Positions 48,115 to 55,336 of a stretch of 64,000 nt of DNA are shown here, piece after piece (within the stretch, counting starts at the first letter, position 1; each line of letters starts with the position of its first letter). The notes beneath the pieces were generated by a model, which worked only from the letters and a program-made list of their open reading frames with translations, had not been told where the DNA came from and searched no databases. The stretch is from positions 30,205 to 94,204 of the forward strand of contig CAMCYF010000004.1 of assembly GCA_945883825.1 (NCBI GenBank), given 5' to 3'. The translations under genes were made by a program, and so were the position numbers. The stretch is from Chitinophaga pinensis (GTDB lineage Bacteria; Bacteroidota; Bacteroidia; Flavobacteriales_D; Crocinitomicaceae).

Positions 48115-50298
48115 ATGAAATTATCTCTCCTCATCATAACACTTGTTTTTTGGTTTTTTAACACTATTAATTCTCAAGTTCAACGTAAAGTTGACATGCA
48201 GAACACACGTGATGGCGAAAACATAGAATATTGCTTTACGCATAAAAAAATGCAAGCCTTACTTCAAAATCAGGATTTCTTGGCACAATTTAATCTCGAT
48301 GAAATAGCATTTGACAAAGCCATGAAAAAGGGTTCTTCTTCCAAAGGCACCGTTTTTAGAATTCCTGTTGTTTTTCATGTTCTTCATAATCAGGGAATAG
48401 AAAATATTTCAGATGAACAAATCATTAACGCTGTAGCAATTTTAAACCGTGATTATAGAAAACAAAATGCCGATACTGCAACTGTACATCCAGATTTTCT
48501 AGGTCTTCCTTATGATTCTGAAATAGAATTTGTTTTAGCAACGAAAGCACCTGATGGAACTTGCTTTAAGGGAATTACAAGAACAGAAACAATTTCAACT
48601 TTCCAAGGGGAAGATGGAGATGCCCAAGCTCAGGCAGTACGAGATGGTAATGACGTTTACATTGGTGATTGGCCAGGAAATAAATACCTAAATTTCTTTA
48701 TTTGCGATGATATAGGTGGGGCTGCTGGTTATACAAGATATCCTTCTCAATGGTCTGCTGATGATATGACAAATGGCATTTGGGTTCTACATACTTATGT
48801 TGGCTCGATAGGTACAAGCTCTGAAAGTCATAGCCGAGTGCTAACACACGAATGCGGACATTGGTTGAATTTGCCACACACCTGGGGTTCTACTAATAAT
48901 CCTGGTCTTGAAACTTCATGTGATACAGATGATGGCGTTACCGATACTCCTAATTGTATTGGCGTTACAGCCTGTATTTTAAATGCAAATACCTGCGATT
49001 CTGACAATGCATATTGGGGATTTGATATACACGATAACGTTAATAACTACATGGATTATTCATATTGTTGCAAGATGTTTACAGCAGGACAAGCTGCTCG
49101 AATGAGAGTAGCAGTGCAACAAGCAAATACTGGACGTGCAAATTTGTGGTCTTCTGCAAATTTAATAGCTACAGGAGCAACCGGCTCATTGTATTTATGT
49201 AAAGCCGCTTTTTCTGCCGATAAATCAACTATTTGTTTAGGAGATGAAGTTCAGCTAACAGATGATTCATACAACTTAGTTACAAGTTGGCAATGGGAAA
49301 TAACTCCGGCTTCTGGTTGGTCGTTTTCACCTGGTTCTTCAGCTTCGAGTCAAAATCCAAGTATAATTTTTAATACTTCAGGTTTATACTCGGTAAAATT
49401 AATCGCTAATGATGGTTCAATTAGTGATGAGGAATTAAAACTAAATTACATACGCGTAGCTCCAGAGGCAGCTGTTTTACCTTTCTGGGAAGGATTTGAG
49501 AATTACACTTCTTTAACAAATATTAACAATTGGCAAATAACTAATTTTAATGATAACAATGCTTTTACGATTGAAAACACGACGAGTTATTCTGGTTTAA
49601 AATGTGCGAAATTGATAAACTTTGGCGAAGCTTCTTTAAGCATTGATGAACTAACTTCTTCTACGATTGATTTATCGTCGATTGCCCCAACAGATACTGT
49701 GACGCTAAGTTTTAGGTATTCTTACCGCAAAAGAGATGAAAGTAATTATGAGTATTTAAAAGTATTCATTTCTTCGAATTGCGGAAGTTCTTGGGCACAA
49801 AGAAAAACGCTAGGAAATAATAATTTATCGCCTTTGGTTTCTTCTGGTTTTTGGATACCAAGCGAAGAAAGCGATTGGACAACTGTTCACATGACAAATA
49901 TCACAAGTACTTATTTTACAAGCAATTTTAAAATGAAATTCCGATTTGAAGGAAATGGAGGAAACAATTTTTATTTAGACGACATAAATTTATATGCTGG
50001 TTCAGCTTCAAATGATTTGGTTTTAGGAGTTCAAGAAACTGCTACAATTTCTAGTTTAGAATTATTCCCAAATCCAGTAGAGGATGAATTGCAACTTCAG
50101 TTTATAAGTAAGCAAAATGAGGCAATTCAATTTTCGATTGTAGATGTAACAGGAAAAATTCTTTCACGTCAAATAATAAAAGCAGTAGCTGGAAGTAATA
50201 TAGTTTTATTCCCGGTTTCAAATTTAGCTTCAGGTGCATATTTTCTTAAAATGGGTTCTGAAGAAACAACAAATGCTCTTAGATTTATTGTAAAATAA
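48115..50298 (+). CDS. Secreted M43-family zinc metalloprotease (pappalysin-like), T9SS cargo, copy 1
   Basis: The 727-residue protein has a signal peptide (residues ~1-21). The catalytic domain carries the zinc motif HECGHWLNLPH (His245, Glu246, His249, third His255) and the downstream NNYMDYSYCCKMFTAGQAARM, the Met-turn region of M43. A cysteine-rich loop surrounds ETSCDTDDGVTDTPNCIGVTACILN. A PKD-like domain (residues ~365-450, SVKLIANDGSISDEELK), a jelly-roll domain (LPFWEGFENYTS ... NNFYLDDINLYAG) and a T9SS sorting domain (LELFPNPVEDELQLQF ... NALRFIVK) follow. It is the tandem paralogue of the next gene. Confidence 0.93.
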   Translation: MKLSLLIITLVFWFFNTINSQVQRKVDMQNTRDGENIEYCFTHKKMQALLQNQDFLAQFNLDEIAFDKAMKKGSSSKGTVFRIPVVFHVLHNQGIENISDEQIINAVAILNRDYRKQNADTATVHPDFLGLPYDSEIEFVLATKAPDGTCFKGITRTETISTFQGEDGDAQAQAVRDGNDVYIGDWPGNKYLNFFICDDIGGAAGYTRYPSQWSADDMTNGIWVLHTYVGSIGTSSESHSRVLTHECGHWLNLPHTWGSTNNPGLETSCDTDDGVTDTPNCIGVTACILNANTCDSDNAYWGFDIHDNVNNYMDYSYCCKMFTAGQAARMRVAVQQANTGRANLWSSANLIATGATGSLYLCKAAFSADKSTICLGDEVQLTDDSYNLVTSWQWEITPASGWSFSPGSSASSQNPSIIFNTSGLYSVKLIANDGSISDEELKLNYIRVAPEAAVLPFWEGFENYTSLTNINNWQITNFNDNNAFTIENTTSYSGLKCAKLINFGEASLSIDELTSSTIDLSSIAPTDTVTLSFRYSYRKRDESNYEYLKVFISSNCGSSWAQRKTLGNNNLSPLVSSGFWIPSEESDWTTVHMTNITSTYFTSNFKMKFRFEGNGGNNFYLDDINLYAGSASNDLVLGVQETATISSLELFPNPVEDELQLQFISKQNEAIQFSIVDVTGKILSRQIIKAVAGSNIVLFPVSNLASGAYFLKMGSEETTNALRFIVK

Positions 50299-50316
50299 TA
50301 TTTTTCGGTATATTTG
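50288..50316 (+). promoter_or_regulatory. Promoter of the second M43 protease gene
   Basis: TTG (50288-50290), an 18-bp spacer and TATATTTG (50309-50316) match the Bacteroidota promoter. The TTG overlaps the last codons of the first protease gene. The second ATG is 36 nt after the box, so the second copy can be transcribed independently. Confidence 0.7.
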
Positions 50317-50352
50317 ATTTTGTCAAATTAAGTAATCAAACACTTTATCCAA

Positions 50353-52545
50353 ATGAAATTTCTCCAATTTTATCTTGCACTTTTTCTTCTACTATTTGTA
50401 AATCAAACACTTAATTCCCAAATAAAACATGTGTTTAATCCAGCAAATGCGAGAGATGGTGAACTAGTTGAGTACTGCCACACGCACTTAAAGATGAATG
50501 AATTGCTTCAAAACCTTGATTATGCAAAAGCAAAAGCAGAAGACGATGCAAATTTTAACGCAGCATTAAAAAAAGGAGGATTTCAAAAGGCTACTATTTA
50601 TAAAATTCCTGTCGTTTTTCATGTACTACACATAAATGGTGTTGAGAATATTTCAGATGAACAAATTTTTAATGCTGTAGCTATTTTAAACCGTGATTTT
50701 AGAAAACAAAATGCTGATACAGCAAACGTTCATACTGATTTTCAGGGTATGCCAGCAGATGTAGAGATTGAGTTTGTATTAGCTACAAAAGCCCCAAATG
50801 GAACTTGTTTTAAAGGAATTACAAGAACTAATTCAGCTCTTTCGTATGATGGTTCAAGTGGATCTGCTCAGGTTACAGCAATTAGAAATGGAAATGATGT
50901 TTATATAGGATCTTGGCCAGGAAATAAATACTTAAATATTTTTGTGTGCGGAGAAATAGGTGGTGCTGCAGGTTATACTACAAATCCCTCAACATTTTCA
51001 GCAACTTCAATGAATAATGGGATTTGGATACTTCATGATTATGTTGGTTCTATAGGAACAGGATCTGTAGGAGGAAGTAGATCATTAACGCATGAAGTAG
51101 GGCACTGGCTAAACTTAGAACATACTTGGGGTCCAAATAATAATCCAGGAACAACAAGTTCGTGTTCAACTGATGATGGTGTTACAGACACTCCAAATTG
51201 TATTGGCGTAACCGCTTGCTTATTAAATTCTAACACCTGTAATTCTGATAATGCATACTGGGGATTTGATATTAGAGATAATGTAGAAAACTACATGGAT
51301 TATTCTTATTGTAGTAAAATGTTTACTTCGGGGCAAGTTGCAAGAATGAGAACTGCAGCTCAGCAAACAAATACTGGTAGAGCAAATCTTTGGTCAAGCG
51401 CAAATTTAACAGCAACTGGTGCAACAGGAATTCTTTCTTTGTGTAAGGCAGAATTTACAACTGATAAAACATCTATTTGTTTGGGTGATCAGATTCAATT
51501 TACGGATGATTCCTATAATTCAGCAAATTCATGGAATTGGCTTATAACTCCTTTAAGTGGTTGGTCATTTGTCGCAGGCACATCAGCAGCGAGCCAAAAT
51601 CCTAAAATACTCTTTTCTGCGCCAGGGTCCTACTCAATTAAACTTACCGCTTCTGACGGCTCAATTTCTGACGACGAGCTCAAGACAAATTTTATTTTTG
51701 TGACACCTCAAGCTGCAACATTGCCATTCTGGGAAGGTTTTGAAAATTATACAAGCTTAGCAAATTTAAATAATTGGGAGGTTTACAATCCTCAGAATAA
51801 CAATGCCTTTACGATTGAAAATACTACGAGTTTTTCTGGATCAAAATGCGCAAAGCTTGTAAATTTTGGGCAAACACCCTCCAATATTGATGACCTTATT
51901 TCTGCTCCAATTGATTTATCTGTTATTCCAGCTTCTGGAATAGTTACTTTAAGTTTCCGATATGCATACCGTAAAGTAACAAGTGCTAATTATGAATATT
52001 TTAAAGTTTATATCTCTTCAAATTGTGGAGAATCTTGGACACTAAGAAAAACCTTAGCAAATAATAATTTATCGAGTTTAACTTCAACATCATCTTGGAC
52101 ACCAACTCAAACAAGTGACTGGGTTACTGTTCACATGACTAATGTTACGAATACATATTTCACAGATAACTTTAAAGCTAAATTCTCATTTGAAGGTGAA
52201 GGCGGAAATAATTTTTATTTGGATGACATTAATTTATACGCAGGAGCACCATCTGATAATTTAGTAACAGCGGGAATTGATGAGGTTATTGATTTTGAGA
52301 ATTTTTCACTTTATCCAAATCCTACAGATGCTGAATTCAATGTTCAATTCAATGTTGAAAAACAAGAACGCTTAAGGTTTGAAATCCAAGATTTAGCAGG
52401 TAAGTTTGTTCGTCAACATTTTATTCTAGCAAATGAAGGAACAAATTTAGTTTCTTTTGAAACTTCAGAACTTTCTAAAGGAATGTACTTACTTAAAATA
52501 AGTTCAGCTTCTGGAGCGAAAACAGTTCAGTTTATAGTAAACTAG
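50353..52545 (+). CDS. Secreted M43-family zinc metalloprotease, T9SS cargo, copy 2
   Basis: The 730-residue protein has the same domain order as copy 1: signal peptide, catalytic domain with HEVGHWLNLEH (His247-Glu248-His251) and NYMDYSYCSKMFTSGQVARM, PKD-like, jelly-roll (LPFWEGFENYTSLANLNNW) and T9SS C-terminus (FSLYPNPTDAEFNVQF ... AKTVQFIVN). Both copies keep all three zinc histidines and the catalytic Glu, so both are predicted active. Sequence identity is high over the whole length. Divergence is greatest after the signal peptide and in the sorting domain. Confidence 0.93.
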   Translation: MKFLQFYLALFLLLFVNQTLNSQIKHVFNPANARDGELVEYCHTHLKMNELLQNLDYAKAKAEDDANFNAALKKGGFQKATIYKIPVVFHVLHINGVENISDEQIFNAVAILNRDFRKQNADTANVHTDFQGMPADVEIEFVLATKAPNGTCFKGITRTNSALSYDGSSGSAQVTAIRNGNDVYIGSWPGNKYLNIFVCGEIGGAAGYTTNPSTFSATSMNNGIWILHDYVGSIGTGSVGGSRSLTHEVGHWLNLEHTWGPNNNPGTTSSCSTDDGVTDTPNCIGVTACLLNSNTCNSDNAYWGFDIRDNVENYMDYSYCSKMFTSGQVARMRTAAQQTNTGRANLWSSANLTATGATGILSLCKAEFTTDKTSICLGDQIQFTDDSYNSANSWNWLITPLSGWSFVAGTSAASQNPKILFSAPGSYSIKLTASDGSISDDELKTNFIFVTPQAATLPFWEGFENYTSLANLNNWEVYNPQNNNAFTIENTTSFSGSKCAKLVNFGQTPSNIDDLISAPIDLSVIPASGIVTLSFRYAYRKVTSANYEYFKVYISSNCGESWTLRKTLANNNLSSLTSTSSWTPTQTSDWVTVHMTNVTNTYFTDNFKAKFSFEGEGGNNFYLDDINLYAGAPSDNLVTAGIDEVIDFENFSLYPNPTDAEFNVQFNVEKQERLRFEIQDLAGKFVRQHFILANEGTNLVSFETSELSKGMYLLKISSASGAKTVQFIVN

Positions 52546-52727
52546 TTTTTGGGCAAGTTGAAACAAAGATATAGCGGACACGAACAGATATAATCGAAGC
52601 TTCAGTTTGATACTTATTGACAGATCAGCCTGACAAAAGAAAATAAAAAGTGGAGATCAGAAACCACTATAAAAAACGGGGCGAAACCGAAAAGCCTGAC
52701 GAGTAGGAAAACAAAAAATAAATTAAA
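52546..52727. other. Structured non-coding spacer with short repeats and hairpins
   Basis: This 182-bp spacer is G+C-richer (sampled lines 33-38%) than the other spacers here. It contains a direct repeat GCCTGAC at 52628-52634 and 52694-52700. It also has two short inverted repeats, AGTGG...CCACT (52649-52653/52664-52668) and CGG...CCG (52677-52679/52687-52689), close together. No ORF, promoter box or RBS-like site explains them. It could be a structured 5' leader of the lipoprotein gene, or a dispersed repeat. Confidence 0.4.
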
Positions 52728-53390
52728 ATGACACCAAAATTTAAAATTATTTTAATGCTTTTGACAATTAGCACACTTTCAATTACGAGTTGTAAAAAAG
52801 ATGACGATTTACCAACGCCTTCGCCAACGCCTACAGCTTCAAAATCATTTCTTAATCTTACTTTTAATACAACAAATGCCTATTTCTCTACAGATGGTAG
52901 TATGAGTACACCTGTAGATTCAAATCAGGCAAAAACAATAACAAGTAAAATTGATATCACCTTTATTTTTAATTATGACTATACTAAACCTGGTTTTTTT
53001 GATCCTATTGCTAGGTCTCAAGTTTGGTATTGGAATGACTATTACAAACCATGGCTAAGTACAGCTGTCAAAACAGAATATTATAAAACTTCACTTACAA
53101 AGGCTGACTTCGATGCTGCAAAAACTGACCAAAGCAAAATCGCAACTTGCTTCTCTAACTCAAGTACAGTATTAGCACCACATGGAATTTTCCCAACAGG
53201 TAGTTGTATCGGGGGGAGACAATCATCAAACCCTTTATCAATAATGCTTAGTCAAGGGAATGTATTTGGATTTAAAAATACTACTTCTGGCAAACGTGGA
53301 CTTATTTATATTAGATTGGATCAATATTCTGGATGGCCGATGCCAATTTCAAATTTCAACACAAAAGTTGACATAATTAGAGAAAACTAA
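52728..53390 (+). CDS. Lipoprotein of unknown function, lineage-restricted
   Basis: The 220-residue protein has a lipoprotein signal (MTPKFKIILMLLTISTLSITSC) with Cys as the last residue of the box. An Asp/Pro/Ser/Thr linker (DDDLPTPSPTPTASKS) follows, then a single compact domain with many aromatic residues (VWYWNDYYKPWLS). No known family. It is flanked on both sides by unusual structured non-coding DNA (52546-52727 and 53414-53516). This suggests it arrived as, or lies inside, a mobile or hypervariable insert. Confidence 0.75.
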   Translation: MTPKFKIILMLLTISTLSITSCKKDDDLPTPSPTPTASKSFLNLTFNTTNAYFSTDGSMSTPVDSNQAKTITSKIDITFIFNYDYTKPGFFDPIARSQVWYWNDYYKPWLSTAVKTEYYKTSLTKADFDAAKTDQSKIATCFSNSSTVLAPHGIFPTGSCIGGRQSSNPLSIMLSQGNVFGFKNTTSGKRGLIYIRLDQYSGWPMPISNFNTKVDIIREN

Positions 53391-53413
53391 TTTTAAATAT
53401 ACCATAACATCAT

Positions 53414-53516
53414 ATTTGCGAATATGGCGGGTTTAGTGGTAACTAAAACATTCTGCTTCAGATAAATATTCGAGGTAAAATAAAGATACTGCTACTAATT
53501 CCGCCACATCGCAAAT
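53414..53516. repeat. Long imperfect palindrome, possible dispersed repeat or structured RNA
   Basis: The outer arms ATTTGCGA (53414-53421) and TCGCAAAT (53509-53516) pair perfectly. After a small bulge TGGCGG (53425-53430) pairs with CCGCCA (53501-53506). Inside, TTAGTGGTA (53433-53441) pairs with TGCTACTAA (53490-53498) using G-U wobbles. The apical loop holds a mini-hairpin TCTG...CAGA (53452-53462). A total of ~23 bp of stem around a ~48-nt loop is far beyond a normal terminator, and no poly-T follows. It resembles repeated palindromic elements I associate with Bacteroidota intergenic DNA, from memory only. Confidence 0.6.
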
Positions 53517-53530
53517 CTGTAAACCAATAA

Positions 53531-55336
53531 CTATTTTTTTGGATTTAAAAAGTTAAAAAGTTTAAGTCCTTTTGCTTTACCTATAATTATCACCAACTCT
53601 TCCAAACTTTTAGAGCGCATATTTTTTAGAGTTTTAAACTCTTTAAAAAGCACTTCTTTGGTTTTTTCTCCAATACCATTTAAAACATCTAACTCTGAAG
53701 TAATAGCCTCTGTGCTTCTTTTATTTCTATGGTGGGTTATTCCAAAACGATGTGCCTCGTTGCGCATAAATTGAACAACTTTGAGACTTTCAGACCGTTT
53801 GTCAATATAAATAGGATACTGATCTCCAGGAAAAAAAATCTCTTCTAGTTTTTTTGCAATACCAACTATAGCAACTTTTCCACGTAAATTTAATTCCTCT
53901 AGTGCATCTAAGGCAGCGCTTAATTGTCCTTTGCCACCATCAATTATAATAAGTTGTGGCAAGGATTGCTCTTCTTCGAGCATTCTCTTGTAGCGTCTAA
54001 AAACAATTTCACGCATTGTGGCAAAATCATCCGGACCATCTACCGTTTTTACATTAAAATGCCGGTAGTCTTTTTTTGCAGGCTTACCATTTTTGAATAC
54101 TACACAAGCAGAAACAGCATTTGTTCCTTGGAGATTTGAGTTATCAAAACATTCCATGTGAAGGGGTAATTCGGATAAGCGAAAATCTGATTTTACTTGT
54201 TTTAGAATTCTATCTTGGCTTGATTCTGGAGTTTTTAAAAATTCTTTTTTCTGTTTTTCCAGTTTGTAATATGCAATATTTCGTTGTGATAATTCAATCA
54301 ATTTTTTTTTCTCGCCACGTATTGGAATTGTAAGTTGAAAATCTTGGAAGTAGTTTTTTAGTTCTTGATCAACAAGAACCTCTTTAGAAGTACTTGAAAA
54401 TTTCGACCGTAATTCTGGAAGGGCATAATTTACTAAAGTTTCACTTGTCTCATTTAATTTTTTTATAATTTGATTTGTGTAGGCATGAATAATTGCACCT
54501 TCTCGAACTACTAAATAATTAACAAAAAAGCAAGATTCCTCTTCGATACAAGTAAATACATCAAGATCGGAAATTTTAGGTGAAACAATTGTGGATTTAG
54601 ATTTGTATTTTTCAATTTTTCCAAGCAATAGCTTCATTTCCTGAGCATCCTCAAATAAATAATTATTGGAGAGCATTTGCATGCGAAACTTAAGTGTTTG
54701 AATTAAGGCTGCTGTCTTTCCTTTTAAGAGTAAATGAATCTCCTCAATCATTTTATCATAAGCTTCTTTTTCTTGTTTTCCTTCACACGGACCTAAACAG
54801 CGCTTCAAGTGATATTCTAAACAAACACTAAATTTTTTTGCTTTAATTTTTTGTTGGCTTAAATCCAATGAGCAAGTACGTAAAGGGTACATTTCTCGGA
54901 TTAAGTGCAAAAGAGCGTTCATTACCTGCACATTTGGATAAGGGCCATAATAAATTGATCCGTCATCTAATTTTTGGCGAGTTGAGAAAATTCGAGGAAA
55001 AACTTCTTTTTTTACAACAATCCAAGGAAATGTTTTGTCATCCTTTAGTTGAATGTTGTATTTCGGCTGGTATGTTTTTATAAGGTTATTTTCTAATAAA
55101 AGCGCATCTAGTTCTGTTTCTACCACGATGTATTTTATTTCAAAAATTTGCCGTACGAGAATTCTCGTTTTATTATTATCAAGCGTTTTATTAAAATAAG
55201 AACTGACTCTTTTCTTGATGTTTTTGGCTTTGCCTACATAAATAATTTTCCCGGTTTTGTCAAAAAATTGGTATACACCCGGACTTTCTGGTAAAGTCAC
55301 CAATTTTAATTTTAAATTAAGTATTTCTGTACTCAC
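53531..55336 (-). CDS. uvrC: Excinuclease ABC subunit C
   Basis: UvrC makes both incisions in nucleotide excision repair. The 601-residue protein has the normal length. The N-terminal GIY-YIG nuclease (PESPGVYQFFDKTGKIIYVGKAKNIKKRVSSY) is followed by a Cys-containing segment (CLEYHLKRCLGPCEGKQ) and a UVR motif (LKFRMQMLSNNYLFEDAQEMKLLL). The RNase H-like C-terminal nuclease (MECFDNSNLQGTNAVSACVVF, IIIDGGKGQLSAALDAL, AHRFGITHHRNKR) precedes the HhH domain (ELDVLNGIGEKTKEVLFKEF). All key acidic residues appear present. Confidence 0.97.
   Translation of the reverse strand: MSTEILNLKLKLVTLPESPGVYQFFDKTGKIIYVGKAKNIKKRVSSYFNKTLDNNKTRILVRQIFEIKYIVVETELDALLLENNLIKTYQPKYNIQLKDDKTFPWIVVKKEVFPRIFSTRQKLDDGSIYYGPYPNVQVMNALLHLIREMYPLRTCSLDLSQQKIKAKKFSVCLEYHLKRCLGPCEGKQEKEAYDKMIEEIHLLLKGKTAALIQTLKFRMQMLSNNYLFEDAQEMKLLLGKIEKYKSKSTIVSPKISDLDVFTCIEEESCFFVNYLVVREGAIIHAYTNQIIKKLNETSETLVNYALPELRSKFSSTSKEVLVDQELKNYFQDFQLTIPIRGEKKKLIELSQRNIAYYKLEKQKKEFLKTPESSQDRILKQVKSDFRLSELPLHMECFDNSNLQGTNAVSACVVFKNGKPAKKDYRHFNVKTVDGPDDFATMREIVFRRYKRMLEEEQSLPQLIIIDGGKGQLSAALDALEELNLRGKVAIVGIAKKLEEIFFPGDQYPIYIDKRSESLKVVQFMRNEAHRFGITHHRNKRSTEAITSELDVLNGIGEKTKEVLFKEFKTLKNMRSKSLEELVIIIGKAKGLKLFNFLNPKK

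Follow-up and report, generated by a model that had tools for sequence, protein, structure and literature searches.

The window, by which we mean the whole 64,000-nucleotide stretch of DNA analysed here, carries a segment of 985 bp between the stop codon of an M43 peptidase gene (52543-52545) and that of the convergent uvrC gene (53531-53533). Within this segment an R'-like start, an RF03081 leader, an orphan lipoprotein gene and an attC-type site follow one another in this order (Table 1). The covariance-model match of the leader lies above the gathering score and makes it a clear member of RF03081. The call of the gene product as a lipoprotein is based on its LSITSCKK signal-peptide end; the protein matched no Pfam or PADLOC family, and homologues were absent from the 85 other genomes of the genus that were searched. 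Further upstream, 48115-52545 is occupied by a tandem pair of paralogous M43 peptidase genes, both with T9SS tails, and the downstream copy alone abuts the cassette.

Table 1. Features of the insertion locus, in window coordinates
Feature	Position	Strand	Evidence or remark
M43 peptidase gene with T9SS sorting tail, left neighbour	50353..52545	+	Pfam PF05572, PF18962
Insertion target, left half TAAACTA|GTT	52538..52547	+	compared with the C18 contig end and other attI regions
Cassette start, degenerate R'-type core box GTTTTTGGGC	52545..52554	+	sequence comparison with arrays
Inserted gene cassette, ~980 bp	52546..53525	+	27 congeners with the empty site; 1-2 bp uncertainty at the ends
RF03081 'DUF805 RNA', leader of the cassette gene	52645..52713	+	Rfam 83.2 bits, gathering score 51.1
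Cassette gene, 220-aa predicted lipoprotein, orphan	52728..53390	+	ORF
attC-type recombination site	53402..53525	+	folds; homologue in G003
Palindrome of the preliminary description	53414..53516	+	paired core of the attC-type site plus variable apical region; folds
Target, right half AATAACTA	53526..53533	.	sequence, empty-site comparison
uvrC, convergent right neighbour	53531..55336	-	Pfam PF08459, PF01541

The preliminary description of this locus had reported a long imperfect hairpin of successive paired blocks with an apical mini-hairpin, and folding confirmed it. The + strand forms a single long hairpin with an outer stem of 8 bp (ATTTGCGA/TCGCAAAT), a 3/2-nt bulge followed by the mid-stem TGGCGGG/(T)CCGCCA, an inner stem TTTAGTGGT/ACTGCTACTAA and an apical loop which contains a small inner hairpin. 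Its minimum free energy is -37.1 kcal/mol, whereas dinucleotide shuffles gave -16.2 +/- 3.0 (z = -6.9) and none of 200 was as good; the minus strand gave z = -5.2. When the element was folded as DNA, the bottom strand reached -16.0 and the top strand -15.3 kcal/mol, which is a weak difference. A poly-T tail directly 3' of the hairpin is absent, as had been stated.

A BLAST search with 121 nt in 60 related genomes recovered one full relative, 87% identical, on contig C9 of the congener G003. The similarity spans ~53402-53520 of the window and then ends, with unrelated genes on its flanks; hence the element exceeds the 103-bp palindrome in length and moves independently of its surroundings. The span originally given holds for the paired core, and the full element with its core boxes extends from 53402 to 53525. 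Additionally, a pattern of the exact arms was found in G003 alone among 249 genomes of the order, thus the apical sequence does not belong to a family of dispersed repeats, and BLASTN against plasmids gave no match to the palindrome.

The full element has the parts of an attC site: an R'' box CCATAAC (53402-53408), a spacer, the arm ATTTGCGA (53414-53421), the opposite arm TCGCAAAT (53509-53516) and a second spacer up to 53525. Architecture of the folded single strand is conserved and its sequence is variable, as in attC sites. The G003 copy with the unrelated flanks is bordered by core boxes CCCATAAC...CGTTA, of the AAC...GTTA type, and an intact relative of the right half on another contig of that genome (G003:C5, ...TCGCAAATCTGCAAAACGTTA) reads CTGCAAAAC|GTTA where the window reads CTGTAAACC|AATAA. 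On the basis of this alignment the cassette end was placed at 53525, with the target resuming at 53526 and an uncertainty of 1-2 bp. The GTT of an R' box is absent behind the window attC, as expected for a cassette in a site which is neither attI nor attC, or after decay. At the other end, the sequence from 52545 is GTTTTTGGGCAAGTTGAAAC; the R' position reads GTTATGGGCAAGTTTAAA in the arrays of relatives, and the window deviates with GTTTTTGGGC instead of GTTATGGGC, in weak complementarity to its own R'' CCATAAC. The boxes of this cassette have probably decayed and the cassette has become fixed, the right R' box being missing or mutated, so that it is probably locked in place. From these sequence features, together with the empty site, the attI-like junction and the integrase and array described below, we regard it as highly probable that the 103-bp palindrome is the core of an attC-type site which ends a single ('orphan') integron-type gene cassette.

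A search for uvrC covered 61 genomes of the genus and yielded 27 comparable congener loci. In all 27 the M43 peptidase gene and uvrC directly adjoin, with stop codons -11 to +10 bp apart (e.g. 'aaatag AAGA ctattttttt' in G003). Since the stops of the neighbours nearly touch there, the cassette is a clean insertion and our genome represents the filled site. There is no target-site duplication at the insertion, which makes a DDE transposon unlikely. The left junction, TAGTAAACTA|GTT, is exact, the M43 peptidase stop codon supplying the G at the crossover, and the right one is uncertain by 1-2 bp. TAAACTA|GTT is common to the window and to the attI of contig C18 of the same genome (TATAAACTA|GTT), and the insert would represent a lone cassette that entered an attI-like chance site. 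Its isolated position, far inside its contig and away from the integrase, speaks against the integron-type reading, as do its imperfect boxes and the integrase's lack of the IntI insertion.

Among the readings offered for the palindrome was a remnant of a cassette recombination site, together with the advice to look for an integron-type integrase, and both proved fruitful: a matching integrase, attI and array were found elsewhere in the same genome and strongly support that reading. Contig C18 encodes a tyrosine integrase of 279 aa and ends 95 bp behind it, at the attI crossover, its final sequence being ...GTGTATAAACTAGTT / ...TATAAACTAGTT. Four cassettes, whose sites are of the same kind, form an array at the end of contig C3, and the start and end boxes of each cassette pair (GTTATGGGC/GCCCATAAC, GTTATAGCC/GGCTATAAC, GTTAGCTGC/GCAGCTAAC and GTTAGCGG/CCGCTAAC). 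Since C18 breaks exactly at the attI GTT, we infer the connection of integrase, attI and cassettes within this genome.

In relatives this connection can be followed on continuous sequence, where tandem RF03081 matches were the route to the arrays. The loci L062 and L065 consist of genes with a box ending in AAC behind them, then a hairpin and, after a short spacer, a box that begins with GTT. In G017 (locus L098) several cassettes stand behind a tyrosine recombinase of 277 aa, and one of them, carrying a membrane cyclase gene, is present twice; over 1,394 bp, from CGTTATAAAC to AAAACGTT (CGTT to CGTT), the two copies agree completely, and beyond the identity both flanks diverge. The limits of this identity define the mobile unit as reaching from GTT to GTT. 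Furthermore, the sequence behind the integrase is common to the integrons of G026 and G033 and the second integron of G017 up to CCCTACGTT, beyond which two of the three lead into different cassettes and the contig of G033 breaks off; this common sequence and the subsequent divergence fix attI and the crossover. The duplicated cassette, the common attI and the empty site all place the insertion precisely between G and TT. In G025 and G005 the first cassette starts with GTAA|GTTATGGGC and carries RF03081. The integrase adjoins attI and the first cassette in G017, G025, G009, G020 and complete genomes, arrays directly follow it in the single-contig genomes G644, G359, G357 and G640, and both C3 and the complete genomes contain arrays of cassettes each of which ends in attC.

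Complementarity of R' and R'' within the same cassette is a textbook signature of integron cassettes. When the R' of one site was compared with the R'' of the next one, complementarity of at least 6/7 was found in 19 of 28 neighbouring site pairs, against 2.8% in the all-by-all comparison; complementarity had not been used for finding the sites. The arms differ from cassette to cassette, around core boxes and a spacing that stay the same. The attC-like hairpins numbered 18 behind 32 insertion-less integrases, with 1.2 expected from shuffles, and behind 26 Xer control loci there was 1, with 0.4 expected. The scan is tuned to the long-armed Bacteroidota type: at threshold 12 it reports 0 canonical sites in Vibrio and other IntI loci, and it passes over the site in the window, where GTT is absent. 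When public genomes were scanned with the integrase alignment, loci of many Bacteroidota were recovered, with attC-type hairpins downstream in Algoriphagus ornithinivorans, Seonamhaeicola aphaedonensis and Winogradskyella ursingii, among others, so the likeness to intergenic repeats of other Bacteroidota, suggested in the preliminary description, was right: attC-type sites occur across the phylum. With the alignment and a threshold of E <= 1e-70, integrases of this type were detected in 106 of the 346 Bacteroidota genomes sampled.

RF03081 was also considered as an obligate part of the cassettes, which was rejected because only 8 of 30 loci have an R' box upstream (at most 1 mismatch); the R' of the window, with two mismatches, would be the ninth. 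It follows an exact GTTATGGGC by ~61-65 bp in 6 of the 30 loci, and other copies lie outside cassettes. At L066 (4420-5900) tandem small genes led by RF03081 lack attC-type palindromes, which indicates that this RNA also spreads or functions outside cassettes.

Several further observations were made at the integrase loci. Contigs end ~35-220 bp behind the integrase in L100, L102, L104, L154, L158, L169, L171 and L172, and those of our genome and of G033 end exactly at GTT, as if arrays broke assemblies; draft genomes would then hide such integrons. The cargo among the cassettes includes a Pycsar-type cyclase-like gene, an esterase and a serine hydrolase. The duplicated cassette of L098 (7410-8750 and 10453-11793) carries the gene of a membrane (MASE10) guanylate/adenylate cyclase with matches to Pycsar cyclase models, and possibly represents antiphage cargo. 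In G005, two genes matching the defence models HEC-06/Orf5/SspE (L106, 10095-13347) stand behind an integrase fragment and an RF03081-led gene, and are candidate cassettes at most. Two small genes of single-strand-binding proteins lie beside the integrase at five loci of four congener genomes (L098 5523-6190, L104 4941-5608, L102 1042-1709, L108 8568-9252, L103 1568-2294), ~170 bp from it in four; PF00436 was found in the three loci scanned and BLAST matches in the others. Their presence is suggestive, as folded single-stranded DNA would be the substrate of the proposed system. A gene with an ORF6N domain (PF10543), possibly a regulator, is located directly upstream of the integrase in four congeners (L099 4165-4596, L101 6006-6509, L103 2734-3237, L105 3650-4664), five bases away in three of them.

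In the integrases themselves the additional domain near patch III that marks IntI, an IntI-specific insertion of ~41 residues, is absent: 20 residues stand where the IntI VchIntIA (2a3v) has ~62, and 64-65 residues separate the catalytic Lys motif from HxLRH, compared with 105-107 in IntI and 68-73 in most Xer proteins. The three proteins scanned with TIGR02249 scored 206-233 bits, below the cut-off of 265, with profile positions ~180-240 skipped, and no match above the cut-off occurred in the 60 relatives searched. The best PDB match of the predicted fold (pLDDT 83, pTM 0.59, from a shallow alignment) was 2a3v, an IntI, with E 4e-17, at a high rmsd which derives from the uncertain domain placement. 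In a quick tree the insertion-less integrases and IntI group together, apart from XerC/XerD, with support of 90-100, and IntI is nested among a few non-Bacteroidota insertion-less rows; a single insertion-less clade apart from IntI gave an AU p = 0.21. The insertion-less integrases thus branch next to or around IntI and may preserve the state before the domain was acquired. Those nearest to IntI in the quick tree, at L172 and L166, are on contigs binned as Undinarchaeales and Firmicutes MAGs, where mis-binning is possible.

The absence of the insertion is also what speaks for a different reading of these units, namely that they are cassette-like but owe their spread to nothing other than homologous recombination or transformation between repeats, the integrase being irrelevant. 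We consider this quite improbable: the junctions are base-precise at GTT between unrelated flanks, and attI and arrays lie directly downstream of such integrases in many genera, unlike at the Xer controls. It is most improbable that the hairpin plays no part in mobility and is a transcription terminator or mRNA 3'-end stabiliser of the lipoprotein gene and the convergent uvrC. Its position directly behind a gene, its stability on both strands and the convergent genes at its sides would suit such a role, but no T-run adjoins it, termination leaves unexplained the AAC...GTT core boxes which pair across cassettes, and congeners without the hairpin have the two flanking genes stop to stop. Termination is possibly a side role of the attC hairpin.

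The mobile single-stranded-DNA element considered in the preliminary description, taken as a REP/BIME-like palindrome that a RAYT or another Y1 transposase of the IS200/IS605 type would move, would account for a long imperfect, intergenic palindrome with a relative elsewhere in a congener. This is scarcely credible, since the exact element is present in a single copy in its genome, no PF01797 protein is encoded there (the control search was positive in 5 of 14 named genomes), and the inserted unit is a whole 980-bp gene cassette, not the palindrome alone. The suggestion that the palindrome by itself is a riboswitch or another structured non-coding RNA, favoured by the strong fold of both strands, is just as hard to credit, as it belongs to no Rfam family (a chance MIR161 match with E = 0.06 was the only one) and the arm sequences vary between cassettes around constant core boxes and spacing.

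For the integron-type cassette we propose the following course of events, which starts from elements read in the sequences: the unit, its boundaries, the empty site, the attI-like target and the co-resident integrase and array. The attC would fold as a single strand, probably the bottom one as in known integrons, and be bound by the integrase of C18 in spite of its missing insertion. A circular cassette, from the C3 array or from incoming DNA, may then have recombined at G|TT into the chance site that resembles attI at the stop codon of the M43 gene, and the product would have been resolved by replication. The cassette gene might be expressed from its own RF03081 leader or by read-through.

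Integrons are the main known system capturing and shuffling single genes, and Bacteroidota, which are common in oceans, soils and guts, are reported to have almost none. Taken together, our analysis makes it probable that Bacteroidota have widespread integrons of their own, overlooked because their integrases lack the IntI domain and their core boxes depart from GTTRRRY, possibly in a pre-domain state, with cassettes which often carry an RF03081 leader as a candidate expression module and also land alone at attI-like sites. If insertion-less integrases run these arrays, integron function does not depend on the IntI domain, and published integron censuses would miss a large share of Bacteroidota, given the frequency of such integrases in the sampled genomes. 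This raises the question of how an enzyme without the IntI-specific insertion recognizes a folded attC strand. RF03081 would gain a concrete setting as a cassette leader, and many orphan genes would be marked as cassette cargo.

As in class 1 and Vibrio chromosomal integrons, a cassette consists here of a core box, a gene and an attC hairpin with boundaries at G|TT, the R' and R'' of one cassette are complementary, and arrays stand behind an integrase and attI. The sites share with known attC the AAC...GTT core boxes, imperfect arms, unpaired spacers and variable apical region. However, the R' boxes mostly depart from GTTRRRY, with GTTAGCG, GTTATGG, GTTACCA and similar ones being common and only a few fitting (e.g. 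GTTGGGC and GTTAAGC), the arms are long (~20 bp) with a 5' spacer of 1-3 nt and a 3' spacer of 5-7 nt, the central loop measures ~65-75 nt in many sites, and the integrase is read in the direction of the array. The DUF805 RNA, reportedly described by Weinberg in 2017, is classed in Rfam (RF03081) as a cis-regulator, and here it rides in integron-type cassettes.

With IntI (VchIntIA, PDB 2A3V; TIGR02249) the integrases align over both halves and share the C-terminal 'SPFD/SPLD' motif and the grouping in the tree; they differ in the missing insertion and the TIGR02249 score below the cut-off. Archaeal and bacterial IntIs are described with a unique additional domain (PMC9668308), and the insertion is reported, in passages of PMC8138268 and PMC9668308, to be essential in known integrons. 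The 'Integron-like' subgroup of tyrosine recombinases (Smyshlyaev 2021, PMC8138268) comprises IntI and relatives in which the catalytic-domain insertion is not fully conserved; in the portions of that paper available to us the insertion-less members are not tied to arrays, whereas here arrays adjoin them. With IntegronFinder 2.0, Bacteroidetes, which earlier had only integrases without cassettes, have one complete integron, in Salinibacter ruber (PMC9024848), and the taxon-specific attC models cover 11 taxa, none of them Bacteroidota (PMC8352920). In the literature outside subscription journals and preprints, a description of Bacteroidota arrays with insertion-less integrases was not found. 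Insertion of cassettes into chromosomal sites which are neither attI nor attC is known as attG (Loot 2024, as cited in PMC12444791). Such insertion shares with our locus the lone chromosomal cassette at a chance site and the crossover at G; it was described for canonical integrons in E. coli experiments, whereas the window would hold a natural case, with a target resembling the host's own attI.
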